Shown here piece by piece: positions 13,788 through 38,226 of a stretch of DNA of 64,000 bases. The stretch is taken from positions 434,001-498,000 of the forward strand of contig JAPEUQ010000006.1 of the NCBI GenBank assembly GCA_027946365.1, written 5' to 3'. The notes below the pieces were generated by a model. The model saw only the letters and a program-made list of their open reading frames with translations, was not told the DNA's origin and did not search any database. Position numbers and translations under genes: made by a program. This DNA is from Kalmusia sp. IMI 367209 (taxonomy: Eukaryota; Ascomycota; Dothideomycetes; Pleosporales; Didymosphaeriaceae). Within the stretch, counting starts at the first letter, position 1, and the number at the start of each line of letters is the position of its first letter.

Positions 13788-14890
13788 CTATGCTACCTCC
13801 TCATGCGGTATGCGCTCCTTGGCGGCGAGACGCATCTGTTCGTCGAGCAAACCCATCAGAACTTGATCTGTCCCCTCCTTCAGCCAGTCTGCATCGTGTG
13901 CCAGTGCGACGTGGAAATTGAATTCCTTCTCCAAAACTCTGATCCTTGAGATGGTGTCTTTGGCGGCATCCAGGTCGGCGTGGAGCGATACCTTACCGCT
14001 GCGGTGCGGCATACAAAACTGTGCGATTTCGTGGGTGCCGTCAAGTACCGCCCTGTCTGTGTGAGCATATATTGCAACGTCCCCAAAACACCTCTTGCAG
14101 GACTGAGGCAACGAAAAACGTACCTTGAGTGGCAGCAGTCGCTCCCCAAAAGAACCCACTGGCCGCTTTCCAGTCGTGCCGCTGCACACAGATTCCCTGA
14201 CATGTGGCCCGGCGCCTGGATCACCCAAAAGCTACCGTCGCCGAAAAAATCCTTAGCTCGTTCGAAGGGTCCGAATGGCACCCATGGGCCCGCGAGCTCT
14301 TCGCAACGTTCGGTCGCCCGCTCCGGATCGAAGAATCGGCCGTCCCATTGCGCATTCACGTCTGCCAGATGTCCAGGCGAACACCCATCTTTTGTACCTG
14401 GTCCGAAGTATGCTGTTGCATTGGGGAACTCGTCTCGAATGGGGCGGCAATGGTCCCAATGGGCATGGCTTCCAACGTCAGCTCTAAGGTTCGCCGACAA
14501 TGGGCCAGTAACCACACCTAAATAACACGGCCTCAATACGAGCAGACAAGACACCTCGCTCGCTCAGTTGCTGCCCAATACTTCTCCTCGGACCAGCAGG
14601 AGTGACATAATCCAGCATGAACTTGTTCACCCAGGGCGTGTAACGCGAACGATCCTAGAGCCAGTGAGCGTACTTCAGCTTACGAAATGCGAGGATATAC
14701 CTACTTCGTCTAGCCCGAGGTCCCACAAAATATGTGTGTCGCCATGCGAGATAGCGAATGCCCAGTTATACATCCTGAACTTCGCATTGCTGACGCCTGC
14801 ATGCAGCTTATCCGTATCTGCAATGAAGCTACCGCCATCGAGCAGTGAGAGTCCGACAAAGGCCTTCGTCTGCGGCAGAGGACTGGCCAT
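13788..14890 (-). CDS. Metallo-beta-lactamase-fold hydrolase (lactonase-like)
   Basis: Four exons (14890-14705, 14654-14518, 14468-14124, 14052-13788) give 310 residues; the introns are 50, 49 and 71 bp. The zinc-binding signature SHAHWDH is assembled exactly at the second splice junction (LF|SHAHWDH), which supports that acceptor. Further ligand candidates are the His of APGHMSGN and the Asp of LLGSDCCHSR. The fold resembles N-acyl-homoserine-lactonase/quorum-quenching MBL enzymes, which open lactone rings. In a cluster with a cycloisomerase-like protein it could hydrolyse an enol-lactone to an oxoacid; this is inference. It diverges from the esterase gene, with a CCCCACAT site between them. 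The start is ATG 14890 (MASPLPQTK). Confidence 0.85.
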
Positions 14891-15473
14891 CTCCGCTACA
14901 GGTGCTGCAGACACAATTGAGAGCTGCGGTGCGGCTCATGGCTCTAGGTATTAAAGACGGCGGAATACCTTAGGCAGCGGGCTCCACATGTTGCACTTTG
15001 CCTTTCAAGGTAAAGACTAGTTCGGATTGAAGAGGTAACTCATAACGCGCGTACCTCAGCCTCTCTGTATCGCATCCTGTTGATCCTTCGCACCCCTGGT
15101 TTGCATCCTCGGCCGAACTCATCATCACTGATCGATTTGCGACACCAGCGAAGGGTTTCTACGCCTCATGGCGGTACCAAGTACTGGGGGGTACGATTTG
15201 TGATTTCGCCATTTTCCCCCACATGCATCTCAAACGGTCCGCACGGACTTCGCGCCTTTGCCCCACCATTTATACTCCATAGCGGGGTAGCTCCTCGTTC
15301 CTAGGTACAAGCAATCTATCTTCATAGCGTTGTTTTTCTTTAATGATACATCTTCTGTCAGCCATCGAGGTCTGGAATTATCTGATTAGCGCAGTACTCT
15401 ACATCCCGTCTGTTCGAACAACCTGGTAGTCTTTGCCGCAAAAAGAAAATCTTCTGAGTATTTCGCTGTCAGT
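14891..15473. other. Divergent promoter, MBL hydrolase / carboxylesterase
   Basis: 583 bp. It contains CCCCACAT at 15217, GCCCCACC at 15260 and GCGGGGTAGCTCC near 15282; the last element recurs as GGGGTAGCTCC at about 25217 in the Fe-ADH/thiolase promoter. Confidence 0.6.
15217..15224 (+). promoter_or_regulatory. CCCCACAT cluster motif
   Basis: Exact octamer, extended to CCCCCACATGCAT, between the divergent MBL-hydrolase and esterase genes. Confidence 0.5.
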
Positions 15474-17301
15474 ATGACAACCACTTTCAAGCACCAGGAC
15501 CTGGGCGACGTCAAAGGCAATGCTAAAGATGGCGTTGTTCAATTCTTGGGGCTCAAATATGCGTCGTTGGAAGATCGCTTCGCATCCCCGTCGCTGGTAA
15601 CGGAATACGGCTCAGGGGTGATCGACGCCTCCAAATACGGGTACATCATGTGAACACAAATTGCAGAGCTGTGCTAATACGTTGTAGTCCTCCTCCAGTC
15701 TCACCTATAGGCGCTATAAACAATGAATTCGGGTTCATTCAAAAGTCATTACCACTTCCGCCAGATGTTCCGATCCATTCAGACCTCGAAGGTCTGAACC
15801 TCAACATAGTTGTTCCTGCGGGCAAGGCTAGTAGCATCGATACGAGCGCTAGACTTCCTGTCTACGTTTTTGTTCATGGTGGCGGTTTTGCCGTTGGCTC
15901 GAACTGGTACCCCCACTACGATCCTACAGCACTTGTCAAGCTTTCCATCGAGAAAGGAAAACCTATCATCGGCATCACGATCAAGTCAGTATCGTGAGTA
16001 CAGATTTTTTTATATACTGCTAATATCGTGCAGCTACCGTTTAGGTGTGACGGGTTTCTTGACGTCCAAAGAGCTGCGGAACGCAGGCTACAAGGCAAAT
16101 AATGGCTTCCATGATCAACATACTGCCCTTAAATGGGTGAAAAAGTTCATCGGTGGTTTCGGTGGTGACCCAGAAGAGATCACTACCGTGGGCGAAAGCG
16201 CAGGTGGCCGTACGTACTCCACTGAGCCTTAGATGACAGATGCTTACGGGACTAGTGGCTGTTACTACAATGCTACTCTCCAAAGAGCCACTCATGAAGC
16301 GATGCTTGAGCACGGGAGGCGCGGTGCTATTGTTCAAGCCACTACCTGAGGCAGTGACTGAAGATGCATATCAAAAAGTCATCAAAGCCTTTGGGCTAGC
16401 AGAAAAGTCTCCAGAGGAGCGAATAAAGGCGCTCCTCACCATTTCCGTGGATGACTTATGGCTGAAGGTTCCACCCGGAACACCGCTGATTCCTGCTATC
16501 GACAATGACATCATTCCCGGTGTCCCAACTTTCCCTATCGTCTCATCCTTATCAGACGACCCGCAATTCCCGATTCCCGGTCGGAAATGGTGTGCGGGCC
16601 TGATGATAGGCGAATCCAAACTCGATGTAGGTTTCCACCGAACCATGCCCGTTGTATACTAATAAACATGATAGGGAAACATCCTTCTGTACTTGGGCCT
16701 CAATGGTAGACTCCCAAACATTGCACCGAAATTTGTAGAGTCAGTGAACAAGACCTTGGCAGCACATCCCGACGCAGCTTCGACTCTCCTCTCATCCTAC
16801 AACATCACTTCCTCAACTAACGACGACGAAGCACTCATCTCTATCCTTCGCTTCGCTACTGAAATCAGCTTCTATGCGCCCGCTCTCGCCTTCGCGAAGG
16901 GCTGGCCAAAGACAAAAGAGAATAAATATTTCCTTTACCACTTCAACGAGGGCATCCCATGGGAAGGTAAATTCCAAGGCGAAGCAGGTCATATTCTTGA
17001 TGTAGCATTCTTGTTCCAGAACTACAACGAGTTCTTGACCGAGGAGCAGAAGAAGGTCGCGCGCGCATATGGCGAGGACTTCATCGAGTTTGTCAACGGG
17101 AACGATCCGTGGCCGCCTGTCGAGGGCGATCAATTCGGTGCCAGAGTCTATGGGCCAAGCAACGACGGCATCACAACGAAGTATGTCGCATCGGGAAACC
17201 CCGCGGAGGTTGGGCGGGACGACCGCGTGCTCAAGCTCGGAGAGCAGCTCGGCTTCGACACGGTGATGGACGTCTTTCAGAACTTCTTGCAAGGCCAATA
17301 G
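15474..17301 (+). CDS. Type-B carboxylesterase/lipase family protein
   Basis: Five exons (15474-15640, 15688-15984, 16034-16209, 16256-16626, 16675-17301), with introns of 46-49 bp, join to 545 residues. The oxyanion-hole motif HGGGF is near His119, the nucleophile elbow GESAGG (Ser210) ends exon 3, and the acid/base His is in EAGHILDVAFLFQNY (His443). There is no signal peptide, so this is a cytosolic esterase rather than a secreted lipase. Type-B esterases cleave carboxylic esters; in this cluster it could release an aromatic or acyl moiety from an ester substrate. Cholinesterase/para-nitrobenzyl-esterase relatives are the nearest fold. Transcribed divergently from the MBL hydrolase. Confidence 0.88.
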
Positions 17302-17400
17302 TCGGGCTAGCGATCTCGAAACCCCAATGTGGGATACCGATTGCCGATTTTTCTTTCTCTGTAGTCTAGTCTTCTGCGAGCAAGTGGGCGAAGTGGGCGT

Positions 17401-17434
17401 GTTCCCCGCGTTCCGCATGTGGGGTGCGGGGAAC
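17401..17434. promoter_or_regulatory. Inverted repeat flanking a CCCCACAT motif, SDR promoter
   Basis: Nine-bp arms GTTCCCCGC (17401-17409) and GCGGGGAAC (17426-17434) enclose ATGTGGGG (17417-17424), the cluster octamer in reverse. It ends 83 bp before the SDR start. Confidence 0.5.
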
Positions 17435-17516: not shown

Positions 17517-18591
17517 ATGGTTCACGTTCAGTTCAATCCAGAGCTGCTTAGCACCCTCAAGGATAAGGTTGTAGTGCTTACAGGAGGCGCAACAGGGATC
17601 GGTAAATCTGCAGTGACGCAGTTCGCTGGTGAACCTATCTGTCCCTTGATAGCGTAGAACAGTACTGATTTCATGTTAGAAGCGGGGTCTAAGGTCGTCT
17701 TCGGCGACGTCAATGAAGCGCCTGCACGCGAGCTGGAAGCTGGCCTTGGTCCAGCCGTCCGCTTTCAATACTGCGACACTTCGTCCTACACTTCTCAACT
17801 TGATCTGTTCGCACTAGCAGAACAAATATATGGCCGAGTTGACGTTGTCGTCGCCAATGCTGGCGTGGCGATCCACAAAGATATCTTCGAGGCGGGCTCT
17901 GACATATCCGTTGAGCCCAGCATGAGAGAGGTCGATATCAATCTTAAAGGCCCCATATTTACAGCAAGAATCGGAATGCATCATCTGAGGAAGAACGGGA
18001 GTAGGAACGGGAAGGGAGGCGGCGATCTTGTGCTCGTCAGTTCCATCGCTGGGTTTAAGGAGAGCGGAGGACTGGCAACTTACACGGCGAGTAAGCATGG
18101 GGTTCTGGGTCTCATGAGGGGATTGCATACTACTGTTGTTCTGGAAGGAATCAGAATCAACGTTATTTGCCCTTGGATGACGAGTATGTCTCATACCTCT
18201 TATCCTGTCTTGTAGTGATACTAACGAAGGGATAGAAACAAAGCTTGTCAAGGGAATTGAAGCTGGCTGGAGGAAACTTGGTCTTCCAGAGAATGAAGCC
18301 GAAGATGTTGCAAGGAGTATTGTCCTATGTGCTTCTGCTAATCGAAGCGAAGACGGCGAAGTCCATCCGGGAGCGAAGATGCCTTTTGCGGGTAAGATAC
18401 TTTGGATCGCAGGCGGCGAAGCGTATGAGATAGAAGACGCGATCCAAGATCTCGAACCGCAATGGCTAGGCGAAGAGAACAGCAAAGTGCTTGCTAAAGG
18501 GCAGGAGTTTCTAGCCAGCCAGGGCACCAGCTGGGACGCGGACAAGCTCTCACAAAAGCCCCATGATGCAAAGCCATTACATAGAGAATAA
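17517..18591 (+). CDS. Short-chain dehydrogenase/reductase
   Basis: Three exons (17517-17628, 17680-18183, 18236-18591) give 323 residues; the 51- and 52-bp introns are GT-AG, the second with a CTAAC branch site. A classical SDR: cofactor loop TGGATGIG (about 22-29), Asp after beta-2 (VVFGDVNE), which favours NAD(H), NAG (VVANAGVA), Ser in LVSSIAG and the catalytic YTASK (Tyr172, Lys176). The PWMTKT loop ends exon 2. The exact alcohol or ketone substrate cannot be read from sequence. It lies tail-to-tail with the epimerase-like gene (41-bp gap) and has the cluster octamer inside an inverted repeat in its promoter. Confidence 0.9.
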
Positions 18592-18632: not shown

Positions 18633-19669
18633 CTAATTGCTTCCTCCCTCAACAGCATCCAACGTCAAATACGCCGGCGCAGGCTTATCCTCACTTATGT
18701 CTCCCCACGCACTCCAATGCTTCCCCACCAGCTTCTCCCCTTCAACCTCATCCGCAATCGCAATCGCCATATCCGCCACACTAATCCCCGTCAACCTCCC
18801 CTCGAAAATACTTCCCCCCTGCTCCTCTCCAACCAACACCATATCATCAACACTAATCTCATACTTCCCGGTCCTCACCCCAGGCCTATACAGCGCAGAT
18901 GGCGACACAAAAGACCACCTAAACGACGTATTCCCATCGAAAAACATATACGCCGTCCTCCCCGCCTTAATAAAGTCCGTCGCGCGGTCCTTCACCCGAA
19001 TCCCAGCCTCGTACGCCGCAATGGCCTTCTCGTCCTCGGGCGTCGCGCGACCCTCGCGCTCAGCGATGCGCGCATTGCGGTAGGCACGCAGCGCCGTGCC
19101 CATAATGCCTAGCCGCTCCTCCATGTACGCAATGTGCGCCTCTGACGTGGCGATCGCGCGGCGGTACGCCATGAAAAAGTCGGGGTGGTCGACGCAGCAC
19201 TCGGGCGTGCCGGGGATGTGTAGCGAGCCTGCGCCGCCGACGAAGAGGAAGTATTTTACTGGGGAGAGCTTGACGGCTAGAATTATCTTGCGGACGGTTT
19301 CGAGGAAGGGCACTGGTCAGTCCCACTTAGCCATTTGATTCTATCCATTCACTTCGAGTTTCTATGTTCGGGTAGATAGGGGGTTTTTGGGCACGCACTG
19401 TAGAGTAAGGCATCTGCGCCTGCGGTATGCGGTCCGTATTCTGAGACTAGGACGTCGATGTCTGAAAAGTGTGCTGCGAGCGAGGAAATGGAGACAGAGT
19501 CGATGTCGAGGGCGCGGGGGGTGTAGCGCTCGTGTGATCCTAGCTTCTGGGGGTTGCGCGAGAGTCCGATCACGGTGTGCCCGCGGTTGAGCAGTTCAAC
19601 GCAGAGGTAGGAGCCTCCAAAGCCTGCGGGGCCGATCACGCCGACTCTGAGGGGATTAGGCGTTGGCAT
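18633..19669 (-). CDS. NAD(P)-binding epimerase/atypical SDR-like protein
   Basis: Two exons (19669-19399, 19312-18633), 86-bp intron, 316 residues. The N-terminal Rossmann fingerprint is VGVIGPAGFGGSYLCVELLNRGHTVIGLSRNP, resembling NmrA-like/NAD-dependent epimerase folds (bacterial YwnB-type), and the family motif FLFVGGAGSLHIPG follows the splice junction. There is no classical YxxxK, so catalysis is uncertain; it may be a reductase or an NAD(P) sensor. The middle (about residues 150-210) is a charged insertion (EREGRATPEDEKAIAAYEAGIRVKDR...) longer than in typical family members. It shares a divergent promoter, with an ATGTGGGG site, with the HIBADH-like gene. Confidence 0.8.
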
Positions 19670-20142
19670 AGTGGTGGAGGTTGAGCTGGTGGTCTGTGAG
19701 CCTTGTGTCGAGTATTTGTTACGTTGTGCTCCTCGGCCTCGTACGTTGAGGTCAAGTATACTATAATAGTATCGAGTTCTGACTGATATGTATAAATAGA
19801 GTTTGTTGCGCGAACAAGCTTTGCGTGTCCAATTGCGGCCTCGACTCATATGACCTCTGCAGCTAGCAACTAGAAGCGAGGTCCTGGTGCATCAGAAGTG
19901 GGACATCATTTCGCGACGTCTGTATCTACTGCCCATTTGGTGTTTAGGACGCATATTGCACGTTTGGGGTACAACATGGAGAATGAGGGGAACAATGTGG
20001 GGCAAAGGGTCGATCATGCAGGGTCTAGCTTGCTACCTTGCCATATGGTTGCTGAGACCATATCGTAAATACATCGTGTATGAAAACAAAAATCGAAACC
20101 TGAAGACTCAATTCGACTCTTGCGGCAGTCGTCATCTGCATA
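19670..20142. other. Divergent promoter, epimerase-like / HIBADH-like genes
   Basis: 473 bp, containing ATGTGGGG at 19995-20002 within a G-rich patch (19962-20010). No gene is seen. Confidence 0.55.
19995..20002 (-). promoter_or_regulatory. CCCCACAT cluster motif (reverse)
   Basis: Exact complement ATGTGGGG, 141 bp before the HIBADH-like start and 326 bp before the epimerase-like start. Confidence 0.5.
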
Positions 20143-21248
20143 ATGGCAGAGAATTATGCTTTCATTGGTACGTCCTCCGATCCTGACATGTACTAACTGA
20201 CACTCCCAAGGGCTCGGCGCAATGGGGTACGCCATGGCCTCCAACATACGGCAGAAGATGCAATCTTCAGCGACCCTATACATAAACGATATAAACGCCT
20301 CAGCTTGCAAGCGATTCAAAGAAGAATACGGCAGCCATGGGCCTATAGAGATCGTCAGCACAGCACGGGAAGCAGCCGACAATGCAAAAGTAGTCATATC
20401 AATTGTACCCGGCGCCAATGATGTGAAAAAGGTCTATCTAGACGGGACATATGGGGTAATTTCAGCAACGAAAGATGAAGAAAGAGTATTATGCGAGTGC
20501 AGTACCATCGACGTGAAAAGTACACGCGAGGTCGGCTCAGCACTGAAAGAAAGAGGATTAGGAACTTACGTAGATACACCCGTCTCCGTAAGTCTACCCC
20601 CTTTACATTGCGACCGCTGCTTGCTGACAATGTGCCCAGGGCGGTGTCCCAGCAGCTGAGAGGGGAGACCTAAGCATGCTCATCGGACACCCCACACCCT
20701 CCGACAGCAACCCGATATCCAAGCGCCTCGAAACTGCCCTGGCGATGATGGGCTCGCCTCAAAAGTTTTTCTGGCTCTCGTCTCTCGGCGCAGGCCTCAC
20801 GGCTAAGATCTCGAATAATTATCTTTCTGGGACTATATTGCTCGCTACTGCTGAAGCGGTCGCCATTGGTGTGGCTCAGGGTCTGGATCCAAAAGAGCTC
20901 TACTCTGTCATCCGTGCTTCTACCGGTCAGTCCTGGATGTGCGATCATGTCATGCCTATACCGAACGTAACGGATATTTGGGTGCCGAGTAACAGCGGGT
21001 ATAAGCCGGGGTTTAAGACTCAAATGATGCTCAAGGATTTGGGGCTAGGAATCGAGAGCGCGAAGCAGGTGGGTATCAGCCCGGTGATGGCAGAAGCAGC
21101 TTTGGATGTATGGGAAAGTGCAAGTAAAGATGAGAAGTGCTTTGACAGAGATGGGAGCAGTGTGTACTTGCATATTGGGGGCAAGCTGCCAAAGGGGTAT
21201 GAGGATAAAGGGAAGAAGAACGATGATGGGTCGTGGGACTTTGCTTAG
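20143..21248 (+). CDS. 3-hydroxyisobutyrate-dehydrogenase-like (beta-hydroxyacid dehydrogenase)
   Basis: Three exons (20143-20167, 20211-20587, 20640-21248), with a 25-nt first exon and introns of 43 and 52 bp, give 336 residues. All four beta-HAD signatures are visible: the NAD(P) fold FIGLGAMGYAMA, the substrate loop DTPVSGGVPAAERGDLSM, the catalytic region GAGLTAKISNNYL with Lys190, and the helical C-terminal domain. Enzymes of this family oxidise 3-hydroxyacids such as 3-hydroxyisobutyrate, or reduce tartronate-type semialdehydes. No mitochondrial presequence is evident. In the cluster it may interconvert a hydroxy/oxo-acid intermediate; the true substrate is unknown. Confidence 0.88.
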
Positions 21249-21367: not shown

Positions 21368-23066
21368 TCATATCTCCATCTCCTTCAAGTCATCGGCGAC
21401 CTTGAAAGGTGCCTCGGTCTTCGCCTTGACCTCCTCGACAGTGACACCCTTTGCAACTTCCTTCAGCGTCAGGCCATCCAGTGGGTGGCAATCAAATACG
21501 GCGAGATCGGTAATAATAGTCGATACGCACTTCTGGCCGGTGAGAGGGAAAGTGCATTGCTTGAGGATCTTGGGGTTGCCCTTCTTGTCGGTGTGTTCCA
21601 TAGTGATGACGACTTTGGTTTTCGAGGGGTTTGCAACGAGATCCATGGCGCCACCAATACCCTTGACCTTGCCGGGAAGCATGAAGTTGGCGAGATCTAT
21701 CTTACATTAGCAGATGCTTCGCGAGATGTGTAGAAGATGAATCTTACCTCCATAGGTGTTGACCTGCATTGCGCCAAGCATAGCAACGTCAATCCTGCCT
21801 GACCTGATCATGCCGAAAGATTCGTGGCTACCGAATGTCGCCGCGCCCTTGATCAAAGTCACAGTCTCCTTCCCAGCGTTGATGAGATCTGGATCCTCCT
21901 CTCCGGGCTTAGGGTATCCACCCATTCCGAGGATGCCATTCTCGGATTCCAGGATAATCTCGACACCCTTGGGAAGGAAAGCCGGAGCAGCCAGTGGCAT
22001 GCCGATTCCAAGATTAACGTACATGCCATCCTTAAGTTCCTGCGCTGCGCGCTTGATGATGCGCTCGCGTTTTTGTGAAGCCTCTGAGGAACCTACTACA
22101 CGTTAGCGATCGGTGTAGGTAAAATTGTCACAGATAGCTTACCTTCCAGGATAGCTCGCTTTTGCTCCTCAGGGTCCTTGTAGTACACCAACCGCTCGAT
22201 CTTCTTCTCTTCTGTACTCTTGATAACCCTCTTTACGTAAACACCTTGTAGATGGATATCTTCCGGCGCAATAACTCCATCTTCGACAATCTCGTCCGCT
22301 TCTGCAATCGTCATCCTTGCGTTCTTGCCCATCGCCTCGTTGAAGTTGTTCTGCGCTTTGCGGAATGTGCAATTTCCGAGGCGGTCCGCCTTTGCGACTT
22401 TTACGAAAGCATAGTCGCCGAAGATGGCCTCTTCCATTACGTAGGCCTTGCCATTGAATTCGCGGGTTTCTTTAGGAGGCGCCATTTTGGCGATCGTGCC
22501 ATCGGTATTGTATTGGACGGGCAGTTCGCCGGTTTGTACTGCGCGGCTCCATCAGTATCTACGTCTCGACTCATTCGAGATTAGAGAGTCTATAACGACA
22601 TACCTATCGTCCCATAAGCCGCAGGCGTGTAGAAAGCGGGCACACCAGCTGCGCCCGCTGCACACTTCTCCGCGATTGTCCCTTGAGGCGTCAATTCCAG
22701 CGCCAACTCGCCCTTCAGATACATTTGTTCGAATGTCTTATTATCCCCAATGTAACTCGCGATCATCTTCCCAATCTGTTTAGTATCCAACCACTGACCG
22801 AGTCCCACGCCGGGCATCCCCGCATTGTTGCTCACGACGGTGAAATTCTTGAGGTCTGAGCGGTCGCGCACCGCGTTAATGAGTGTGTTTGGTACACCTG
22901 AGAAACCGAATCCGCCTACTAGAACGGTTGTGTCCGATTTCATGTCTTTTAAGGCTTCTTGCGCTGAGGGATATATTTTGTTGATCGCAGCACGGGTCGC
23001 AGTGCTCGAGAAGAAGCGGATGGCAGGCCCGCTACGGCGAGCCGCAAAAAGAAATGTTCGTTGCAT
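21368..23066 (-). CDS. 3-oxoacid CoA-transferase (SCOT / 3-oxoadipate CoA-transferase)
   Basis: Four exons (23066-22604, 22538-22143, 22092-21748, 21696-21368) give 510 residues, the usual length of fused alpha-beta SCOT. A mitochondrial presequence is apparent ([21 protein letters not shown]). The alpha part has the CoA-transferase 1 motif [16 protein letters not shown]; the beta part has [14 protein letters not shown] and [11 protein letters not shown], with Glu337 the expected thioester-forming residue. The family moves CoA from succinyl-CoA to acetoacetate or, in beta-ketoadipate pathways, to 3-oxoadipate. The adjacent Fe-ADH and thiolase favour 3-oxoadipate as acceptor, but acetoacetate is possible. 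The promoter has CCCCACAC (23309) and two ATGTGGG half-sites (23261, 23269). Confidence 0.92.
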
Positions 23067-23665
23067 CGTGAAATATTTTGTAGTGCGAAAGGTGGTAAGG
23101 TGGTAAATGCTTTTTGGCTTTCGCTCGAAGCTCTCCAAACAACCACCAGACGATGCAACAGTTCTATGAAAGCTGTATACGAAAGGGAAAGGGTATCGCA
23201 AGCTGCAGAAGCTCCCGGTCCAGCTCCACGCGGCTCCGCAATACTCAATGCACAGTGAAAATGTGGGAATGTGGGTTGTCAAAGTCGCGAATGCAGACTT
23301 ATTACGTTCCCCACACGACGTTTTGAGAGCGTGCATGTCGCCGCTAAACGCGATTAGGCGTACCGAAGCAGCTGCCGGGCCGGTGCCGGTGGAGATTCGG
23401 GGTCGCCAAGGACTCCACAATTGTGAGTGGAAGAAGACTTATCCGCCGCCTAAGAGGCGGAAAAGCATTGTTAAATTTTTATTCCAGCCCTTCAGAGGCC
23501 GGAAAGGTCCTGCTACGGATACATTTCCTTTCAGAAGGCTCAAGTTTCGGAAAATAGAATATCGCTTCCATGATCTTCGCCAGGTTCATAGCTAGCATGA
23601 GGTCATTGGGAGAATAACAGCTCTCTAACATTTCCGATCCTGGCGCATCCTTTATCTTAGCCAGC
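23067..23665. other. Intergenic between Fe-ADH 3' end and SCOT promoter
   Basis: 599 bp. It contains the near-motif CCCCACAC (23309-23316), ATGTGGG at 23261 and 23269, and a perfect 6-bp inverted repeat CCGCCT/AGGCGG at 23446-23460, of the CGG-type used by Zn2Cys6 regulators. No gene is seen. Confidence 0.55.
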
Positions 23666-25234: not shown

Positions 25235-25242
25235 CCCCACAT
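25235..25242 (+). promoter_or_regulatory. CCCCACAT cluster motif
   Basis: GCCCCACATCC in the 263-bp divergent promoter of Fe-ADH and thiolase. It is preceded by GGGGTAGCTCC, an element also found at about 15285. Confidence 0.55.
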
Positions 25243-28506: not shown

Positions 28507-28919
28507 TCAGCTCGGCCACTTCGCGCGGTAGTACTTATGAGATCGATATGGGCTATATTAAGAGACTCAGGGATATTTTCGGTTGTTACGTAGACGTCAG
28601 AACGCACAGCGTTTGAACCAGCATTGCCGGGATAGATAAATTCGCAATCACATCCATTCATCAACCACCCTCCAATATCCCGGTTTCGACCTAGTCAGAC
28701 TCCTCATTCTGGGACACCATTTGCCTCACTGAACGTGTCAATGGGTAGCAACCCCGCCGTTGCTGGGACGAGAACCAGGTCGCCCCACATCACGCGCGAT
28801 CCACACCAGTCAGCAACGGCAGATCTAGCGCTACGCCCCCAGGCGGCTGGTTCAATATAAGTCGAGTTACTGCGGAGAGAGCAGTACCTTCACACAAGTG
28901 CTCTCACACCTAGAACAAC
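28507..28919. other. Promoter of the HGO-like gene
   Basis: 413 bp. It contains CGCCCCACAT (28781-28790), ACCCCGCC near 28751 and a TATA-like CAATATAAG at 28853-28861, about 60 bp before the ATG. Confidence 0.6.
28783..28790 (+). promoter_or_regulatory. CCCCACAT cluster motif
   Basis: Exact octamer 130 bp upstream of the HGO-like start, and about 65 bp upstream of the TATA-like element. Confidence 0.55.
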
Positions 28920-30723
28920 ATGCCTGAGTTCAAGGAACGCCAGCTCATCACTGACCCTCAGAAGGTCTTCCACTTCACCGATCTACAAAGACTCAAGCCT
29001 ACTCGCGAAAACGATCCATATGAGTATCAAGCCGGTTGGGGTAACCGACATCAGTCGGAAGTCATTCCAGGGACATTGCCTGTTGCGCAGAACAACCCCC
29101 AAGAGGTTCGCTTCGGCCTATATACGGAGGGTATAACATATTCAGCATTCGCTGCACCACGTCATTCGAACTTCAGCACATATATGTACCGCTGCAGGCC
29201 AGCGGCCGCTCACAGTATGGTCAACTAAAGCCTTCGTTTTATAATGAGCTAAGCAGGAACAGAGGGTTATGTGCCCATCGAATCGAAGTCAAACATTCAG
29301 AACTGTTTCTTATCCATCAATCCAAAAGTCGCCACCCTACCTGAGCAAGCGGAATGGCACCCCTTTCCACTTCCCAAAGATGAAGAAAAAATCGACTTTG
29401 CGGATGGACTTCACACGTTAGCTGGCAGCGGCGACCCGAACATTCGGGAAGGCCTTGCTCTCTACGTATACATGATCAACTCCAGTATGGAGCGGCGAGC
29501 TTTCTGTAATACTGATGGCGACTTTCTCATTTGCGCCCAGCTCGGCAGCCTCGACATCAAAACGGAGATGGGCAAAATCTTTCTCCAGCCTGGAGAAATA
29601 TGCGTTATTCAAAGAGGTATCAGGTTCTGCTTGAACCTCGCCCCAGATACCAAGGTTGCTCGTGGCTACATTACCGAAGTGTGGGGTTCCATGTGGGAGC
29701 TCCCTGACCTTGGCCCACTTGGTGGACATGGATTGGCGAACCCACGCGACTTCCTGTACCCTGTTGCCGCCATTGACGATGAGCTCCACGTTGATTGGCA
29801 GATCGTTAACAAGACCAATGGCGAGCTCAGTGCCATTCAGCAGGACCACAGTCCGTTTGACCTTGTGGCCTGGCACGGTAACGTCGTCCCCTACAAGTAC
29901 GACCTCACCAAGTTCTCCTCGCAGAACAGCACTTCCATTGATCACACCGATCCATCAATCTTCTGTGTGCTCACCGCCAAATCGCGTGACCCAGTCACAC
30001 CGTTAGCAGACTTTCTGTGGTTTGGGCCACGATGGGACGTAGCGACGAACACCTTTAGATTGCCCTACTTCCATCGGAACTCGGCCTCAGAATTTCTCGC
30101 TTGCTTATACGGTCAAGGCCTTGGTAGGAGTGATGACTTCCAGCCAGGCGGTGGTAGCTTCGAAGGGTGCCACACTCCTCATGGTGGGTTCCACGAGGGC
30201 TACCAGCACGGCATGCGGATACATGAAAATGTACCAGAGAAGATTCTGACTGGTATGGCGTCAGTCATTCGCAAATTCAGACATCTAGCTGACATTATCA
30301 GATCAACTGACCATTATGGTCGAGTCGAGCCGTCTTTTCCTATGGACTGAGTACGCTCGCACAGGCTGTGGGACTATCAGCACTCAAGGCACTGACTATA
30401 AGGTTTGGGACGCATTGCCTGTATGAAAATTCTCATTCTCATGTCGGATCATTTGCTGATTGTCACAGGATCGCTTCTCTGCCAATTCCAAAGCCAGGGA
30501 GTTGCTCACTCGCCTCAAGGAAGATAAAATTTCAGAGAAGAAGAGACTAGCACCATACTACATTGGTGGTTTCTCCCACGGTGCCAATACGAGTGACACC
30601 GAAGGGGTGCACTCCAAGGAACTGAAGCCGTACCTCAATGGAACTAACGGCATCAAGCACGAGGCAACAAACGGTAATGGTGTTACTCACGACGCCACAA
30701 ACGGAACTGCAAACGGCGTTTAG
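28920..30723 (+). CDS. Divergent homogentisate 1,2-dioxygenase homologue
   Basis: Four exons (28920-29214, 29257-30252, 30302-30420, 30469-30723), with introns of 42, 49 and 48 bp, give 554 residues. Conserved HGO blocks are GWGNRHQSE, ELPDLGPLGGHGLANPRDFLYP, QDHSPFDLVAWHGN and PPYxHRN-like LPYFHRNSASEF. Iron ligands map to His371, Glu377 and His407, a constant +36 offset from human His335/Glu341/His371. At the site of human His365 there is Glu401, and HGPD is HGGF, so the pocket differs. After the normal C-terminus (IMVESSRLFLW...WDALPDRFS) about 90 residues follow, ending in an Asn/Gly/Thr/His-rich tail. No maleylacetoacetate isomerase or fumarylacetoacetase gene lies nearby. It probably cleaves a hydroquinone-like ring other than homogentisate. 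Confidence 0.88.
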
Positions 30724-30889: not shown

Positions 30890-30910
30890 CCCCACATGCC
30901 GCATGTGGGG
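30890..30910. promoter_or_regulatory. Perfect palindrome of two CCCCACAT motifs
   Basis: Arms CCCCACATGC (30890-30899) and GCATGTGGGG (30901-30910) around a single C, 79 bp upstream of the class III CoA-transferase start. It is the strongest version of the cluster motif and suggests dimeric binding. Confidence 0.6.
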
Positions 30911-30988: not shown

Positions 30989-32628
30989 ATGCTTCCCAGG
31001 TCATGCTCGAGGTTGGCATCGTCGGCCAGGAGGGCTTGGACCCCAGCAGGTGGTTTAGCTACCACGAATTGTAGGATATGGAGGCGTGGGAATGCAACAG
31101 CAAGCACAGTGGACAAGAAAACCATCGAGAAGCTACCATTGGCTGGTATAAGGGTGTTAGATATGACTAGGGTGCTCGCAGGGGTAGGCCTTCACCCAAT
31201 AAAGACATGAAGTGTGAGATATGAAAGTAACACCATACAGCCTTATTGTACGCAGATACTAGGAGACCTTGGGTATGTCCACGCCCTTATTTGGCTTCGC
31301 TTGCTAATTTGGTTTCAGGGCAGAGATCATCAAGATCGAACACCCAACACGAGGAGACGATACACGCTCATGGGGCCCGCCCGATGCGCCTTATACCGAT
31401 GGCGTTGAGCGTCAGTTTCCAGGCGAGAGTGCTTATTACCTCTCTGTATGCTCCTTTACCTTCTACCTGAATCTAGGATAGCCATCTAACATTTTACCAG
31501 GTCAACCGCAACAAGAAGTCTCTTGGTCTTTCATTCAACAATCCCTCTGGAATATCTATACTCCACTCTCTCGTCCAGAAATGCGATGTCCTTGTAGAAA
31601 ACTACCTCCCAGGCTCCCTGGCGAAGTATAAACTTGACTATGACACACTCTCTAAATTAAATCCTTCTCTAGTCTACGCTTCCGTTACTGGCTACGGACA
31701 GACAGGGCCTTTCAGTGATCGCGCCGGCTACGATGTCATGGTGGAAGCTGAGATGGGACTCATGCACATCACAGGCGAAAGAGACGGGCCACCAGTGAAA
31801 GTTGGCGTCGCAGTCACAGATCTAACGACTGGCATGTATACGGCGATAGGAGTGTTAGCGGCACTGTACGCAAGGAGGGAAACAGGCCTTGGGCAATGGA
31901 TTGATGCAAGTCTGAGCGACTGTCAGGTCGCAGGACTAGCAAATATCGCGAGTAGTGCGTTGATTAGTGGGAAGAAAGATAGCGGGAGATGGGGAACTGC
32001 TCATGGTACGTTGCGACTCCTGTCTTTCAATCCAGAGGTGATATTGACACTTGCCGCACAAATAGCATCCGTCGTTCCATATCGGGCATACAAGACAAAA
32101 GACACGAATATTGCGGTCGGTGGCTGCAACGATAAGCTCTACGGTATCCTATGCGATAAGATCGGCAAGCCGGAGTGGAAGACGGATGCGCGTTTCGTGA
32201 CCAATGCGCTACGAGTGAAAAATAGAGATACGCTCGATCGAATAATTGAAGACGAACTCAAGACGAAGACGACGAAGGAATGGCTTGATATCTTTGAGGG
32301 TAGCGGCATGCCGTATGCCGCTGTCAATGACATCCAGGGCACGATAAATCATGAACACGGTATATCCTTCAACTGACCCCTCAGAATTGCTTCGAAAGCT
32401 AACAGTACATGCAAAGTTCTTGCACGGAACATGATTGAGAAAGTCGATCATCCAAGCTGCGGACCCATCAAACTAGTCAACCATCCAGTCAAGTACTCGC
32501 GAGCAGAGCCGAAGATCAGAAGCCCACCTCCAATGCTAGGCGAGCACACGAGCGAAGTATTGAGGGAGCTCCTCGACTTTGGCGAAGAGGACATCCAAGA
32601 CCTCAAAGTCAAGAAGACGATCGCATAA
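30989..32628 (+). CDS. Class III (CaiB/BaiF) CoA-transferase, succinyl-CoA:dicarboxylate type
   Basis: Six exons (30989-31183, 31241-31272, 31319-31445, 31501-32005, 32066-32359, 32417-32628) give 454 residues; exon 2 is only 32 nt. The presequence is Arg/Ser-rich with no acidic residues over about 40 residues, predicting mitochondrial import. The family core is visible: [37 protein letters not shown], split by two introns, then VENYLPGSLAKYKLDYDTL, and the catalytic Asp196 in GYDVMVEAEMGLM. It resembles mammalian SUGCT (succinyl-CoA:glutarate CoA-transferase), so a dicarboxylate such as glutarate, adipate or a 3-hydroxy-dicarboxylate is a likely acceptor. It follows the HGO-like gene by 265 bp. 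Confidence 0.88.
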
Positions 32629-33098
32629 TTCCAAGCACAACCTCAACATAGGTCCTCAACATAGTTGCATTTCAAGGCGTCTATAGCATAAGACATAGAC
32701 ACAATAGGTCACCCAATACGCACGTAATTTTTCCAAATCGTGATACGTACTCCAGTATACCCTCGCGATACTCCCCACATTGTCTCACAGCTCACCTTTG
32801 CCTCCCACACCGATCGCGCTAGCCCCACATCCACACCAGACCTGCCCCACATTCCCCAAAGCTCACCATCCCTGCAGCAGCACTATTATCATAGGTACCG
32901 GCAGAAAGGGCGCACAATATGCGATGTGTCTGCAAGTAGAATAACCATTGCGACCACTCTGGTGAAAGGGTGGGGAAGCTGTAGTGCAAGTTGTAGTGGA
33001 CAATGTTGTGGATCTCGTGCCATGCTGAATTTTGAAAGTTTGGGTTCTCCATGTGGACCTTGGATGTCGCGCTGCAACATCACTTTTGTATAGGTAAC
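32629..33098. other. Promoter of the dicarboxylate carrier
   Basis: 470 bp with three exact CCCCACAT octamers (32773, 32823, 32845), the highest density in the window. No gene is seen. Confidence 0.6.
32773..32852 (+). promoter_or_regulatory. Three CCCCACAT motifs within 80 bp
   Basis: Copies at 32773-32780, 32823-32830 and 32845-32852, all on the plus strand, 247-326 bp before the carrier start. Confidence 0.55.
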
Positions 33099-34189
33099 AT
33101 GGCATCGAGGGACGCAGAGAAAATTGAGACGGCGAAAGCAGAGAAGGCCAATGTGCTGCCTTTCAGATATCAGTTTGCTGCTGGAGCTGTCGCGGGTATT
33201 TCAGAGGTGAATGCCACTGGCAATAAACACTTCAATTTGCTAATGAAGTCTAGATCCTGGTGATGTGAGAACATGTTTCGAGTGGCGGTATGAAGCTAAG
33301 AATGTAGAAAGGTACCCTCTTGATGTGGTCAAAACGCGGATACAATTACAGCATGGCGTAGCGAAAGACGGCCAAGGCTACACTGGAGTCATAGACTGCT
33401 TTAGAAAGATAATACGAAATGAAGGAGCGACGAGGCTCTATCGTGGGATCACAGCGCCAATATTGATGGAGGTTCCGAAGAGGTTGATCAGTGCCGACCT
33501 GTTCGAACGACGTTGCTCGCTAACACAATTATAGGGCCATCAAATTCTCCTCCAACGATACTTTCGGCCCATTCTACCAACGCCTCTTTCATGTCCCAGC
33601 CCTTACGCAGCCCCTCGCCGTACTCACTGGTGCCAGCGCTGGTGCAGTCGAAAGCTTGGTCGTGGTTCCCTTCGAGCTGCTGAAGATTCGGCTTCAAGAC
33701 AAGACATCTGCATCTCGATACAACGGTCTCCTCGACTGCCTAACTAAAGTGGTTCGACAGGAAGGTCCTCTCGCACTTTATAATGGTTTCGAAGCGACAC
33801 TCTGGCGCCACATCGTCTGGAATGCAGGTTACTTCGGATGTATCTTCCAGGTGCGGGCTCAACTGCCTAATCCAGTGACATCTGCCAATCCAAAAGCGCA
33901 GAAGATGGCCAATGACTTGGCGGCAGGCTTTGTTGGAGGAGTCGTAGGGACAACATTTAACACGCCGCTTGATGTGGTCAAGAGTCGGATACAGAGTGTT
34001 GCGAAGGTCGAGGGGGTGAGAGGGAAATATGAGTGGGCGTGGCCAAGTTTGGGGATAGTTGCGAGGGAGGAAGGCCTGAAAGCGTTGTACAAGGGGTATG
34101 TAGCTAAGATATTGAGATTTGGACCTGGTGGCGGTGTGTTGTTGGTTGTGTATTCTGCAGTAGTGGACATGCTCGGGAAGGTTGTATAG
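33099..34189 (+). CDS. Mitochondrial 2-oxodicarboxylate carrier (Odc-type)
   Basis: Four exons (33099-33206, 33254-33264, 33312-33482, 33535-34189) give 314 residues. The second exon is only 11 nt but restores the conserved ISEILVMYPLDVVKTRIQLQ. Three SLC25 repeats are present with signatures YPLDVVKTR, VPFELLKIR and TPLDVVKSR, and six expected TM helices. The first repeat closely resembles yeast Odc1/2, inner-membrane exchangers of 2-oxoadipate, 2-oxoglutarate and related dicarboxylates. In the cluster it would link cytosolic or peroxisomal intermediates with mitochondrial CoA-transferases. The third intron has a weak donor (GTTGAT) but a good CTAAC branch site. Confidence 0.9.
33254..33264 (+). 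other. 11-nt micro-exon of the carrier gene
   Basis: ATCCTGGTGAT between two 47-bp GT-AG introns. It contributes ILVM of the first carrier signature and keeps phase (108 + 11 + 171 nt). Confidence 0.8.
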
Positions 34190-35272
34190 ATGTCCGAAAC
34201 AACCTACAAACTTATGAAAGTGCAAAATAGGTACAGCTTCTTGACTTCTTGCCACATAATGTGATGATCTACGACGATGCTGAGGAACAACGCAAAGTGC
34301 AAAATCAGGTACTACACGCTTAGCAGAAGTATTCTCACAAGCGTTGCTTTCATTTGGCGTCGGGTAGCACGGAATCTCTTCTCGGGAGCCGTATGTAACG
34401 ATTATCGAAAACCGGGTAAACCAGCAGGTTGAAGCGTAACCGGCCCGTTGATGCAGCATCATGACAAAATCCGACGCTCCGAGATATTTCCTGTGGACCA
34501 AGAGGCAGTGACGCGATCAGCACTATACTCTCTATATGTGCGAAGCTTGATCGACGGTTAATGCAACCCAGATCTAGGAATCTGAGTGCGCATGAAACAT
34601 TTCATATGGAAATTTTCATGTCGGTCACTTTTCCATCAATCACACTAAGGAGATGTTCATTCTTCTTGTTCTTGAAATCCTTCTCGAAGGCGTCGAGAGC
34701 TACGTGCTCGTAGGATCGGGGCAAGGGTGAGCTAGTTATGCCCCACTAGTGCATGCCTGGCCAGGGTCCCCACATGCATTGGGAGTCCGGAAGTATGGAT
34801 TCAACGAACACCTCCCATCAGCTGCGTGGCAATGGTCAGCTGCCTGCAGAGCTTTCCAGGAGATACGAAGCAGAGGCTGGCGTCCGGGTAAGGCGTCAAG
34901 AGAGCTATTGGGGCACACACGCCGTATCCTGCTGCGTCCCGGGTGCCAGAGTTTGATCTGCAGAGGGAAGCACCTCCCACTCTCGTCTCGACCGCTGACA
35001 GGCGTCTTAATGAAGCAGTGAGACTGCAGATAATATGCAACAGTATGTAGATGAAGGGTGAATATGGCGGGAGGGCACATCCCGGGCTTATATTGTGACT
35101 AGGCGAGTCATGGGTAGTACTTCCCCGCAATTCAGATCGCCAACCACGCCGCGGACCCAGGCTCGTCGCCCGGCACTTCGCTCATCTATTCACTCTTCAG
35201 GACCCTCGCCGACGACACTGGACCGCCGAGGGCATCGCAGTTCTCCGCGCGGACTGCACGACACCAACCCTT
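34190..35272. other. Intergenic, promoter of the C2H2 regulator
   Basis: 1.08 kb with CCCCACAT at 34768-34775 (in GGTCCCCACATGCATTGGG) and GCCCCACTAG at 34740. The open frames here overlap one another and look non-coding. Confidence 0.5.
34768..34775 (+). promoter_or_regulatory. CCCCACAT cluster motif
   Basis: Exact octamer about 500 bp upstream of the regulator start. If the regulator binds it, this would allow autoregulation. Confidence 0.45.
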
Positions 35273-38226
35273 ATGGCCTTGAAGCAATGCAGTCTGTGCG
35301 ACCGCAAGTTCACCAAGCTTGAGCATGTCAAGCGCCACGAGCGATCGCGTACGTCTCAATTGATCACTGCGCGATTGCTCCACGACTGATTGCGCACCTA
35401 GATACACGAGAAAGGCCATACGAGTGCCCGACGTGCAAGAAGCACTTCTCGCGCAGGTGAGGATCAATGGCAGAATTTGCAGACTTAAGCCAACCGTGAC
35501 ATAGCGACGTCTTGTTCCGCCATTGCAAAGGCCACGCACAGAACGCCCTAAACAGGCTGAGCAACAGCCAGCAAAATCAGCAGCAGCAACAGCAACAGCA
35601 GCAGCAGCAACAGCAGCAATCCGCGACACCGGCCAGCGACAAGCAGCAGGGCGAAGCCGGACCAACGTCGGAGCGAACACCACAACTTTCACAAGATCCC
35701 AGTTTCTCACCACTATCAAGACGTAAAAGCTCACAACAGGTCCTACAAGCTGGAGAGGGAGCGCAAAATCCACAACATTCGCCGAACTTACATGTGCGAC
35801 ATTCATCTGTACAGCAACAGACATCGCCAGGCGAGAGTCGGCTAGAGGCGCTTCTCAACGCGGCGCAGCATCTCGGAACCCCCGCCGATGTACCCTGGAG
35901 ATCGCCATCTCCAATAAATCTACCCGCTGACAATGAGCGCTTCTTGACGCGCAATCCGGATAATATGCCTCCGCCCATTGACCCAGCAATAGATATGCTT
36001 TCCTTTTCTCCCCAGGGTCACGTTTCTAGTCTAGACCAGTGGGCCTTCGAGCTGGTGCAGAGTAACCATCCCCTTCCAAACCGAACGCCAGCGGATGCTC
36101 TCCAAACGTGGCTTTTCCCTCTCGAAAATGACATCCTCGCCTCAAATGGTTCCCATCACATGGCCATCGACAGCCACTTCGAGCATGATCTATTTCGGAA
36201 TGGCGGAGATAATCATGGCAGTCCGTCTGGCAGTAGTGTTTCGATCGCAAGCAGGATACCTAAGGAGCGCTTTGCAAGAGTCGAAAGCTGTTGGCCCGCA
36301 AGGTCCGAAACGCCTTCCCGTCTGATGCCGACTTTATGGCAGAGTTTGGTTTCGTGCGACTGCTCGAATATCCTTTCCGAGATACCTTCTGGTGTGATTG
36401 AAACCCCAATCAGTGAACGCGAAAGGAGGAATTCACGATGGGGCCTCGACGAGGAATGCAGAGACCTACTTCAAGGCGCCCTCAACAACGCCCCTCAAGC
36501 GAGTAGCCTACGATCCGAGTCATATGGTGATACTGCATCGTCGAGTGGTGAAGCAGGAGCTAGTCCTGGTAGCGAGGGTGTACGGTTTCCTCCTGCAGAG
36601 ATTCTCGATATTGCCTTGGAGATGTATCTGTATTATTTTCATCCGACTTTACCTATCATCCACATCCCTACTTTCTCCGCGAAAAATGCCCCCAGGTCGC
36701 TGCTGCTCTCAATGTGTCTCATTGGCCTTAGTATTCTGGGAACAGCTGGAGCTGCGAAATTCGTATCGCGAACATTTCCCGTAAGTAATTTATTAGAACT
36801 CGAGAAAAACATTCTGATTAGGCTCTTTAGGTTGTTCTCCAGATGGTGTCTGCAGAGTTGCAGTCATTATCAACAACCAATCACACACCCCAGAAACAGA
36901 TGCGTATTCTCGCGACTGGTCTACTAGCACTCAACTTGGCGTCTATTACTGGCGTAAGCAGGAATGTGGCAAAAGGTGAAACTATTGCTAAGCGGGAGCA
37001 GCGGAAGAGTCGAATAGCCCAAGCAGAAAAGCTCTACAGCGACCTCATCACGGTAAGTAGCATTGCATCAGACGCCAATCTTGATCACTCGCTGACGGCC
37101 AAAGGCCGCTCAAAAGCACGGTCTATTCTCCGCAAATGAGAGTGCTCCACCGGATTCACATTTGGAGGAGATATTAGATATTGATCTTCGATGGAAAGCT
37201 TGGTGTCGGGTAGAATGCGCAAAACGGTAAGCGACTTAGTCTGTACTTGTGATCAACCATCTTACTAATAATGTCAGCATCATTTTCGGTCTGCTTGAAG
37301 TGGATTGCTGGTATGCGGCGTACCTGTCAGCCTCACCGATGATACGACCGGAATCTGTCCAAATCCTGCCACCTTCGGAGTACAACTTGTACCACGCAAA
37401 TTCTCCTACGAAATGGTTCAATCTAGTGCAGCGCGGAGCACGGATACACTCGAACCGCATTACTCCTTCATATTTACCAACGCCTGGGCTAAAGCTAGAT
37501 TCCGGTACCCTGCGTAGCCTTCTGACCCTCTTTCTCTTGCGAGTATACGAGGCGAACGACCGGCTTGTTGGTATTACCGGACCGCACAAACACCTTGAGC
37601 CTTGGCGGGTGTACGCCGAGGATCCTAGGAGCCGAGAGCTCATCCCGCTTCTGGTAAACTTTTCCTCATCTTCTATCGATGCGCTACGGACAGCGGATCT
37701 CAACTCAGCAGTCCTTTGGCACTCCGCTTGCATGATGCTCGGAGCCAACATCCGCTATTTCGAGCTCGCTGCAGGGCGAGCAGGGCCAGGACCCGCAGTG
37801 GCTGCTTTGGAGGATATTTCTGCATGGTCACAAACACCATCAGCGCGAAGATCTGTGCTACACGCCGCCCACATTTTCAAACTTCTCTTCGATCGCAAAG
37901 TATCGGACATTGTCAATCCGCACAGTGTTGTAGCTCTGTTTCAGGCCGCGCTTGTCCTTGGTCTTTACATCTTCACACTGCCTCCTACGACCACATGTGG
38001 TATCAACGACAATTGCATCGAACTACTCGATCTTGTCGACTGGACCCATGTAGGTCAAGTCGGCCTCATTGACTCGCCGCATTCTCCTGGCGCTCCTCTC
38101 GGCTTCGGGGATGCCTCGGTAGTGAACTTTATCCGCAGCGGTGGTCCCTTTAGTATAACCGGCATCGCGCTTGAGGGCGGCTATCTTGCAGCGCGCCGCA
38201 CGCGCTCCTACACTGTGCCGACTTGA
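35273..38226 (+). CDS. C2H2 zinc-finger / fungal_trans transcription factor
   Basis: Six exons (35273-35348, 35402-35456, 35505-36780, 36831-37052, 37105-37226, 37278-38226), with introns of 48-53 bp, give 899 residues. Two C2H2 fingers at the N-terminus (CSLCDRKFTKLEHVKRHERSH and YECPTCKKHFSRSDVLFRHCKGH, about residues 6-55) are assembled across the first two splice junctions. A polyglutamine tract (about residues 66-85) and a Ser/Pro-rich linker follow, then a fungal-specific transcription-factor domain (EILDIALEMYLYYFHPTLPIIHIPTF onwards; DIDLRWKAWCRVECAKRIIFGLLEVDC). Finger plus fungal_trans architecture is typical of pathway-specific or stress regulators. Position at the cluster edge and GC-rich site preference of such fingers make it the prime candidate to bind CCCCACAT. 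Confidence 0.87.
35574..35622 (+). repeat. CAG/CAA triplet repeat encoding polyglutamine
   Basis: About 16 mixed CAG/CAA codons in the regulator gene; likely length-variable between strains. Confidence 0.85.

Follow-up and report, generated by a model that had tools for sequence, protein, structure and literature searches.

A catabolic gene cluster of Kalmusia sp. IMI 367209 with a shared promoter motif, a non-canonical ring-cleaving dioxygenase and a probable role in methoxyhydroquinone breakdown

We analyzed a 64-kb stretch of the genome of the fungus Kalmusia sp. IMI 367209 (G000:C27:434001-498000; hereafter the window, to whose positions all unprefixed coordinates refer; the genome comprises 42.8 Mb in 30 contigs), in which 13 genes, encoding 11 enzymes, a carrier and a regulator, occupy 13.8-38.2 kb. 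The cluster brings together a dioxygenase of the homogentisate dioxygenase (HGO) family, a maleylacetate reductase-type enzyme and a carboxylesterase with a 3-oxoacid CoA-transferase, a thiolase and a mitochondrial carrier. New here is the element TGTGGGG, which precedes every one of the 14 genes that run from a flanking cytochrome P450 gene to the regulator. We consider it reasonably likely that these ∼14 genes are a single regulon for the degradation of an alkoxy-substituted hydroquinone, most simply methoxyhydroquinone, an intermediate of guaiacyl-lignin and vanillate breakdown. The channeling of methoxylated lignin fragments into central metabolism by fungi has been mapped only in part, and no more than a candidate is available for the reductase step in Aspergillus niger (PMC8336404; for this and the other papers cited by PMC number, statements refer to the parts of the text available to us). 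A single stretch of DNA that encoded the steps from opening of the ring, through reduction, de-esterification and import, to CoA activation and thiolysis, plus a regulator whose predicted site precedes each gene, would make such a pathway testable in one strain.

Gene content and the shared promoter motif

Spliced gene models were made with a small dynamic programme for codons and splice sites, supplemented by building by hand, and 15 modeled genes were scanned against Pfam, with NCBIfam equivalog cut-offs used for the subtype calls. An earlier note on this DNA, made from the letters alone, had described 13 adjacent and almost all catabolic genes at 13788 to 38226; all 13 have open spliced reading frames and Pfam matches above cut-off in the families then named. 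Two P450 genes flank the run, at 11606-13276 (minus strand) and 38903-40598 (plus strand), of which the first, P450a, belongs to the motif-bearing set. The genes from P450a to the regulator are as follows.

11606 to 13276, minus: P450a, cytochrome P450, 529 residues (p450, 166.7 bits); left edge of the motif-bearing set
13788 to 14890, minus: MBL, MBL-fold hydrolase/lactonase, 310 residues, HAHWDH zinc motif (Lactamase_B, 26.6 bits, cut-off 22.7)
15474 to 17301, plus: EST, type-B carboxylesterase, 545 residues, GESAGG; proposed OmeA-like methyl esterase (COesterase, 185 bits)
17517 to 18591, plus: SDR, short-chain dehydrogenase, 323 residues (adh_short, 131.7 bits)
18633 to 19669, minus: NMR, NAD(P)-binding reductase, 316 residues (NAD_binding_10, 46.3 bits)
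20143 to 21248, plus: HIB, HIBADH-like beta-hydroxyacid dehydrogenase, 336 residues (NAD_binding_2 and NAD_binding_11)
21368 to 23066, minus: SCOT, 3-oxoacid CoA-transferase with fused A and B parts, 507 residues (CoA_trans twice, 333.9 bits)
23736 to 25110, minus: ADH, Fe-ADH, putative fungal-type maleylacetate reductase, 370 residues (Fe-ADH, 117.1 bits, and ADH_Fe_C)
25374 to 26698, plus: THL, thiolase, 408 residues (Thiolase_N/C)
27082 to 28506, plus: CML, lyase of the fumarase/adenylosuccinate-lyase superfamily, 474 residues, single exon (Lyase_1, 157.7 bits, and ADSL_C)
28920 to 30723, plus: HGO, HGO-family ring-cleaving dioxygenase, 552 residues (HgmA_N/HgmA_C)
30989 to 32628, plus: CT3, class III CoA-transferase, SUGCT-like, 454 residues (CoA_transf_3, 416 bits)
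33099 to 34189, plus: mitochondrial carrier, 314 residues (Mito_carr, 3 stretches, 221 bits)
35273 to 38226, plus: regulator, two-finger C2H2 and Fungal_trans, 895 residues, polyglutamine at residues 69-82 (Fungal_trans, 45.3 bits)

Motifs were counted over the 14 intergenic regions (6164 bp in all) that lie between P450a and P450b, the P450 gene at the right-hand flank, and over 1000 dinucleotide shuffles. An unbiased count of 7-mers placed CCCCACA and the overlapping ATGTGGG at the top, with 14 copies each against 1.0 expected from the remaining window. TGTGGGG has 14 sites in the 6164 bp, distributed over 11 of the 14 regions, whereas the shuffles contain a mean of 0.79 and a maximum of 6, none of the 1000 reaching 14. 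Every gene from P450a to the regulator (14/14) has TGTGGGG 85-505 bp before its ATG, with one common site for each of the divergent pairs MBL/EST, NMR/HIB and ADH/THL. The element is missing from three regions: two gaps between convergent genes (41 and 119 bp), neither of which contains a promoter, and the gap between the regulator and P450b, where GTGGGG alone occurs. An A precedes the motif in 11 of the 14 sites and a C follows it in six. The sites are placed as follows.

13630 to 13636, minus: TGTGGGG, P450a promoter, 354 bp before the P450a ATG
15217 to 15223, minus: ATGTGGGG, divergent MBL/EST promoter
17418 to 17424, plus: ATGTGGGG, SDR promoter
19996 to 20002, plus: ATGTGGGGC, divergent NMR/HIB promoter
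23309 to 23315, minus: TGTGGGG, SCOT promoter
25235 to 25241, minus: ATGTGGGGC, divergent ADH/THL promoter
26947 to 26953, minus: TGTGGGG, CML promoter
28783 to 28789, minus: ATGTGGGGC, HGO promoter
30890 to 30910, no strand assigned: perfect inverted pair CCCCACATGCCGCATGTGGGG, CT3 promoter
32773 to 32851, minus: three ATGTGGGG sites (32773, 32823, 32845), carrier promoter
34768 to 34774, minus: ATGTGGGG, 505 bp upstream of the regulator gene

The inverted pair CCCCACATGCCGCATGTGGGG may let two regulator molecules bind. The motif set extends past the left edge of the run first described, to the P450a promoter, and it supplies independent evidence for co-regulation that the earlier note did not have. 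Elsewhere in the genome TGTGGGG is found at 0.134 per kb (13 sites in 96.8 kb, 16 loci counted). The 9-mer GCCCCACAT has 230 copies in the genome against 154 for its reversed control, and six of them fall in a 12.9-kb interval inside the cluster, picked after the sites were known, against 0.07 expected. Another copy lies 69 bp before the ATG of an unlinked maleylacetate-reductase paralogue, which suggests that the motif could serve as a promoter code for locating unlinked genes of the pathway.

The regulator was previously read as a C2H2/fungal_trans protein, and this holds: Fungal_trans is above cut-off (147 matches in this genome), and the two C2H2 fingers are readable although they score below their Pfam cut-offs (25.8 against 40 bits and 20.7 against 25.2 bits). 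Zinc fingers bind DNA antiparallel. The recognition helices, as read from the gene model, are K-LEHVKR in finger 1 and RSDVLFR in finger 2. Among published finger modules, RSDALTR reads GTG and RSDHLSR reads GGG (PMC3607563), and KKDHLHR is found in a finger array obtained by selection for a GGG subsite (PMC2634973); the match between finger 2 and RSDALTR is non-identical, with Val in place of Ala at helix position 3. Helix code and binding orientation together therefore give a predicted site of 5'-GTG-GGG-3', which coincides with the motif core. The shared element would thus fit the regulator's own fingers, and the regulator would bind 5'-(A)TGTGGGG(C) in the cluster promoters, its own included. 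Because TGTGGGG lies upstream of 14/14 genes and the regulator helices predict GTGGGG, this set of 14, P450a and regulator included, is probably one regulon.

The main competing reader of the motif is CreA, the factor of carbon catabolite repression, under which the genes would be co-repressed by glucose, an arrangement compatible with any of the pathway readings below. The CreA consensus is SYGGRG, and GTGGGG is one of its eight words; two others, GCGGGG and GTGGAG, show a slight excess (0.97 per kb, compared with 0.57 and 0.59). However, GTGGGG alone is strongly enriched, at 2.92 per kb in the cluster intergenic regions against 0.45 in the rest of the window, compared with 0-0.97 against 0.28-0.95 per kb for the other seven words, and the sites have the flanking A (11/14) and C (6/14) described above. 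In addition, RSDVLFR of finger 2 predicts GTG, whereas the CreA/Mig1-type helix, RSDELTR, predicts GCG. We regard CreA as an unlikely explanation of the motif.

The ring-cleaving dioxygenase

Judged by its sequence, the ring-opening enzyme of the cluster is of the HGO fold but non-canonical. The "HGO homologue" of the earlier note is sound at the level of family, with HgmA_N and HgmA_C both matched, but not as an hmgA equivalog, since its score of 466.7 bits lies below the NCBIfam hmgA cut-off of 510.75. A protein search of the genome found three HGO-family members, namely the cluster HGO, a second copy that we call HGO3, and a copy at C27:1329.5k that adjoins a gene resembling fumarylacetoacetase (FAH) and that we regard as the canonical HmgA. 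In an unrooted tree built from these three, the PDB chain 9pz4 and 16 of 80 fetched bacterial HGOs, the cluster HGO, HGO3 and 9pz4 are split from the fungus's own HmgA and the 16 bacterial HGOs with support of 100/99, and HGO3 pairs with the cluster HGO at 98/94. Pairwise identity is 52.7% between the cluster HGO and HGO3, 46.3% between HGO3 and HmgA, and 40.6% between the cluster HGO and HmgA.

The pocket also diverges. With residues numbered as in the human enzyme, counted from the iron-ligand triad, the Fe(II) ligands His335, Glu341 and His371 are present in the cluster HGO and in 80/80 bacterial HGOs. The position of the outer-shell His365 is occupied by Glu in the cluster HGO and by His in 80/80 bacterial HGOs, and that of Tyr350 by Gly in the cluster HGO, compared with Tyr in 79 of the 80 and His in the other. 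HGO3 has Glu at the His365 position and keeps Tyr350, and 9pz4 has Gln and Gly at the two positions. Deprotonation of the substrate hydroxyls has been proposed for His292 together with His365 (review, PMC4019311). By the tree split, the loss of His365 and Tyr350, and the hmgA score below cut-off, the cluster HGO is not homogentisate dioxygenase proper.

Two further members of the family have loci worth recording. HGO3 (C27:592.9-598.9k) has ATGTGGGG 157 bp upstream, and a gene for an aldehyde dehydrogenase (Aldedh, 421 bits) stands ∼2 kb away from it. The sole protein without Tyr at the 350 position among the 80 bacterial HGO loci is encoded on chromosome 3 of Paraburkholderia xenovorans LB400 (L041 10001-11353); this HGO-family protein has His for Tyr350, and its locus holds an FAH relative.

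The proposed route and its alternatives

In A. niger, mhdA (NRRL3_10111), annotated as a homogentisate 1,2-dioxygenase gene, encodes methoxyhydroquinone 1,2-dioxygenase; deletion of the carboxylesterase gene beside it, omeA (NRRL3_10110), causes accumulation of 4-oxo-monomethyl adipate; and for the step between MhdA and OmeA the authors propose a homologue of maleylacetate reductase (PMC8336404). We favor the methoxyhydroquinone reading because the HGO, carboxylesterase and maleylacetate-reductase families are all represented in the Kalmusia cluster, and we infer for it the following substrates, order of steps and mitochondrial locations. The HGO-family dioxygenase would cleave the ring between the hydroxyl- and methoxy-bearing carbons to give a methyl ester of maleylacetate, the Fe-ADH maleylacetate reductase would then reduce the C=C bond of this ester, and the type-B carboxylesterase would strip methanol from it to leave 3-oxoadipate. 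The mitochondrial carrier would take up the 3-oxoadipate, from which a mitochondrial 3-oxoacid CoA-transferase and thiolase would form succinyl-CoA and acetyl-CoA. NMR and SDR may hold quinones reduced, and MBL may reopen lactones.

The scores of the individual enzymes bear on this scheme. ADH has as its best PDB relative 9ph0, "MAR1" (295 bits), with the bacterial maleylacetate reductase 3w5s at 104 bits, and EST lies 11.6 kb from the dioxygenase gene, not next to it, and has the same motif upstream. SCOT is above cut-off for the pcaJ/scoB and pcaI/scoA models and THL above that for AcCoA-C-Actrans. For the carrier, earlier called a 2-oxodicarboxylate carrier, Pfam supports Mito_carr alone; the oxodicarboxylate subtype, which we presume, is narrower than that result. 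Over the first 25 residues, lysine plus arginine against aspartate plus glutamate number 5/0 in SCOT, 6/0 in CML and 4/0 in CT3, which suggests that these three carry mitochondrial-type presequences, and in the N-termini of HGO and EST the acidic count equals the basic count. HIB scores 204.5 bits against the HIBADH model, below its cut-off of 291.6, NMR has 7 PDB relatives, among them two putative NADH-flavin reductases, and a PDB sequence search with MBL gave no relative.

CML had been called a bacterial-type CMLE homologue. It does belong to the Lyase_1/ADSL_C superfamily and matches the CMLE PcaB in the PDB at 341 bits, but the bacterial "fumarate lyase" 3c8t (547.7 bits) and the trans-aconitate decarboxylase Tad1 (400 bits) score higher, and it falls below two PcaB models (341 against 355.75, and 450.7 against 595 for PRK09053). 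It carries the segments SSTMPQKRNP, HWGATTQD and RTHLQHA, which we take to be the SS-loop signature and the conserved His/Thr segments of the fumarase/aspartase superfamily. Its best bacterial relatives, from a search of 30 genomes, are 58% identical in Collimonas (L115) and 56% in Cupriavidus (L116); by eye, the neighbors of the Collimonas gene resemble a dicarboxylate symporter and a GntR-type regulator, and the Cupriavidus locus has a GntR-like frame. These lyase loci are perhaps an uncharacterised dicarboxylate lyase system.

The earlier note had joined the genes into a route of ring cleavage, lactone opening, 3-oxoadipate and finally acetyl-CoA plus succinyl-CoA. An aromatic/dicarboxylate cluster with its own regulator, probably leading to 3-oxoadipate and then to acetyl-CoA and succinyl-CoA, survives our analysis, but the PcaB-like lactonising step is unsupported, because HGO-type cleavage, maleylacetate reductase and esterase require no lactone. 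The 15 Pfam-scanned modeled genes include no intradiol dioxygenase.

Among the described systems that come near to the cluster, the methoxyhydroquinone pathway of A. niger likewise uses an HGO-family dioxygenase, a carboxylesterase and a maleylacetate-reductase-like enzyme and, as proposed for the cluster, ends in 3-oxoadipate; there, however, mhdA and omeA neighbor an MFS gene and the reductase candidate, NRRL3_4956, has a distant locus number (PMC8336404), whereas in Kalmusia the dioxygenase, reductase, esterase, two CoA-transferases, thiolase, carrier and regulator stand together, with CML, MBL, HIB, SDR and NMR in addition. The earlier note knew of no described fungal cluster with such a content; the mhdA-omeA pair is published (PMC8336404), and the larger set was not found in the open-licence literature searched. 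The last two enzymes of the 3-oxoadipate pathway of Candida parapsilosis, a CoA-transferase and a thiolase, reside in the mitochondrion, and a carrier is proposed to bring in a C6 oxodicarboxylate (Osc1, Oct1 and the proposed Odc1), but ring opening is by hydroxyquinol 1,2-dioxygenase rather than the HGO-type enzyme of the Kalmusia cluster (PMC5144973). A hydroxyquinol cluster of Scedosporium similarly has a dioxygenase adjoining a maleylacetate reductase, a CoA-transferase and a P450, but the dioxygenase is an intradiol hydroxyquinol enzyme not of the HGO fold and the cluster has four genes (PMC8283699). The homogentisate (tyrosine) cluster hmgA-fahA-maiA (PMC3914699) has the dioxygenase family in common with ours; the 15 Pfam-scanned Kalmusia genes include neither the fahA nor the maiA family, the cluster dioxygenase has a divergent active site, and HmgA is elsewhere in the genome.

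Several observations weigh against the methoxyhydroquinone reading. HGO3 is possibly the true MhdA orthologue rather than the cluster HGO, as it is nearer to HmgA (46.3% against 40.6%), and the printed MhdA-HmgA identity is 50.8% (PMC8336404). Relatives of the reductase, esterase and CML were found in 0/80 bacterial HGO loci, and no vanillate hydroxylase family is present among the 15 Pfam-scanned genes. THL scores 290 bits against pcaF, below the cut-off of 597, and its N-terminus, with three basic and one acidic residue (the same counts as in ADH), is not clearly mitochondrial. Candida ODC1 is not induced on hydroxybenzoates in the account available (PMC5144973), and the core GTGGGG is, as stated, a CreA word. 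CML, CT3, HIB and MBL, finally, are superfluous for plain methoxyhydroquinone.

A different substrate would put some of these extra enzymes to use, although we think this unlikely: the cluster could be a fungal route for 2,6-dimethoxyhydroquinone (syringyl) lignin units, driven by the C2H2 regulator at GCCCCACAT sites. The ring-opened product would then keep its second methoxy group, and the reductase, esterase, carrier, SCOT and thiolase would deliver acetyl-CoA and methoxysuccinyl-CoA, from which the SUGCT-like CT3 would release methoxysuccinate and CML, as a "methoxysuccinate lyase", would eliminate methanol to give fumarate. Fumarase-superfamily lyases turn X-succinates into fumarate, and SUGCT transfers CoA from one dicarboxylate to another. 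Such a scheme accounts for CML and CT3, the two additional enzymes whose presequences are of mitochondrial type, and the replacement of the bulky Tyr350 by Gly in the cluster HGO, unlike HGO3, would widen the pocket, but the same Gly is found in 9pz4, the closest named relatives of CML are the bacterial "fumarate lyase" and trans-aconitate decarboxylase, and maleylacetate reductase itself might expel the methoxy group. The breakdown of syringyl units by A. niger is called unknown in PMC12388069. In PMC13094099, syringyl units are expected to pass via 1,2,3,5-tetrahydroxybenzene. Our reading leaves room for part of this scheme, in that CML and CT3 may serve dimethoxyhydroquinone.

We find it distinctly improbable that two pathways are packed together, a hydroquinone/3-oxoadipate set (EST, ADH, SCOT, THL, HGO and the carrier) and an itaconate/trans-aconitate-type dicarboxylate set in which CML would be a decarboxylase and CT3 an itaconate or glutarate CoA-transferase. 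CML does match trans-aconitate decarboxylase 1 at 400 bits, its closest bacterial relative adjoins symporter-like and GntR-like genes (by eye), and CT3 matches SUGCT (9br6, 396 bits) and mesaconate CoA-transferase models, with SucGlutTfsCaiB at 347 below its cut-off of 750. The Ustilago maydis itaconate cluster (tad1, ria1 and others) also brings together a fumarase-superfamily enzyme, a mitochondrial carrier, a P450 and a regulator, as in the Kalmusia cluster; to our knowledge it has no ring-opening/3-oxoadipate set. However, the Kalmusia CML is closer to the bacterial 3c8t than to Tad1, the itaconyl-CoA hydratase and citramalyl-CoA lyase families are absent among the 15 Pfam-scanned genes, and one promoter motif is common to all. 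Homogentisate/tyrosine catabolism, which the presence of HgmA_N/HgmA_C could suggest, or a chance assembly of metabolic genes that are unrelated is very improbable, given that HmgA sits elsewhere beside FAH, that the FAH and maleylacetoacetate isomerase families are absent among the same 15 genes, and that the promoter motif is shared.

Flanking genes and paralogues

P450b follows the regulator across the gap that holds GTGGGG and no TGTGGGG, and its membership of the cluster is uncertain. To the left of P450a, reading frames at 9.6-11.1 kb of the window appear by eye to be MFS-transporter-like; they are probably outside the regulon, because the TGTGGGG count in window positions 1-13629 is 0.

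Relatives in fungi were sought within the Kalmusia genome, with HGO, ADH, SCOT, CT3, the carrier, THL and CML as queries. Besides the two further HGO homologues, there is one paralogue of the maleylacetate reductase (50% identical), two of SCOT (best segments 64% and 52%), one other copy of CT3 (segments 45-75%), a carrier paralogue at 62%, and thiolases of which the best is at 57%. The cluster genes tested are therefore not the sole copies in the genome, which fits a dedicated set. The CML paralogue, at C30:184.5-186k (L032), is without a mitochondrial presequence and adjoins a gene resembling a Zn-cluster regulator.

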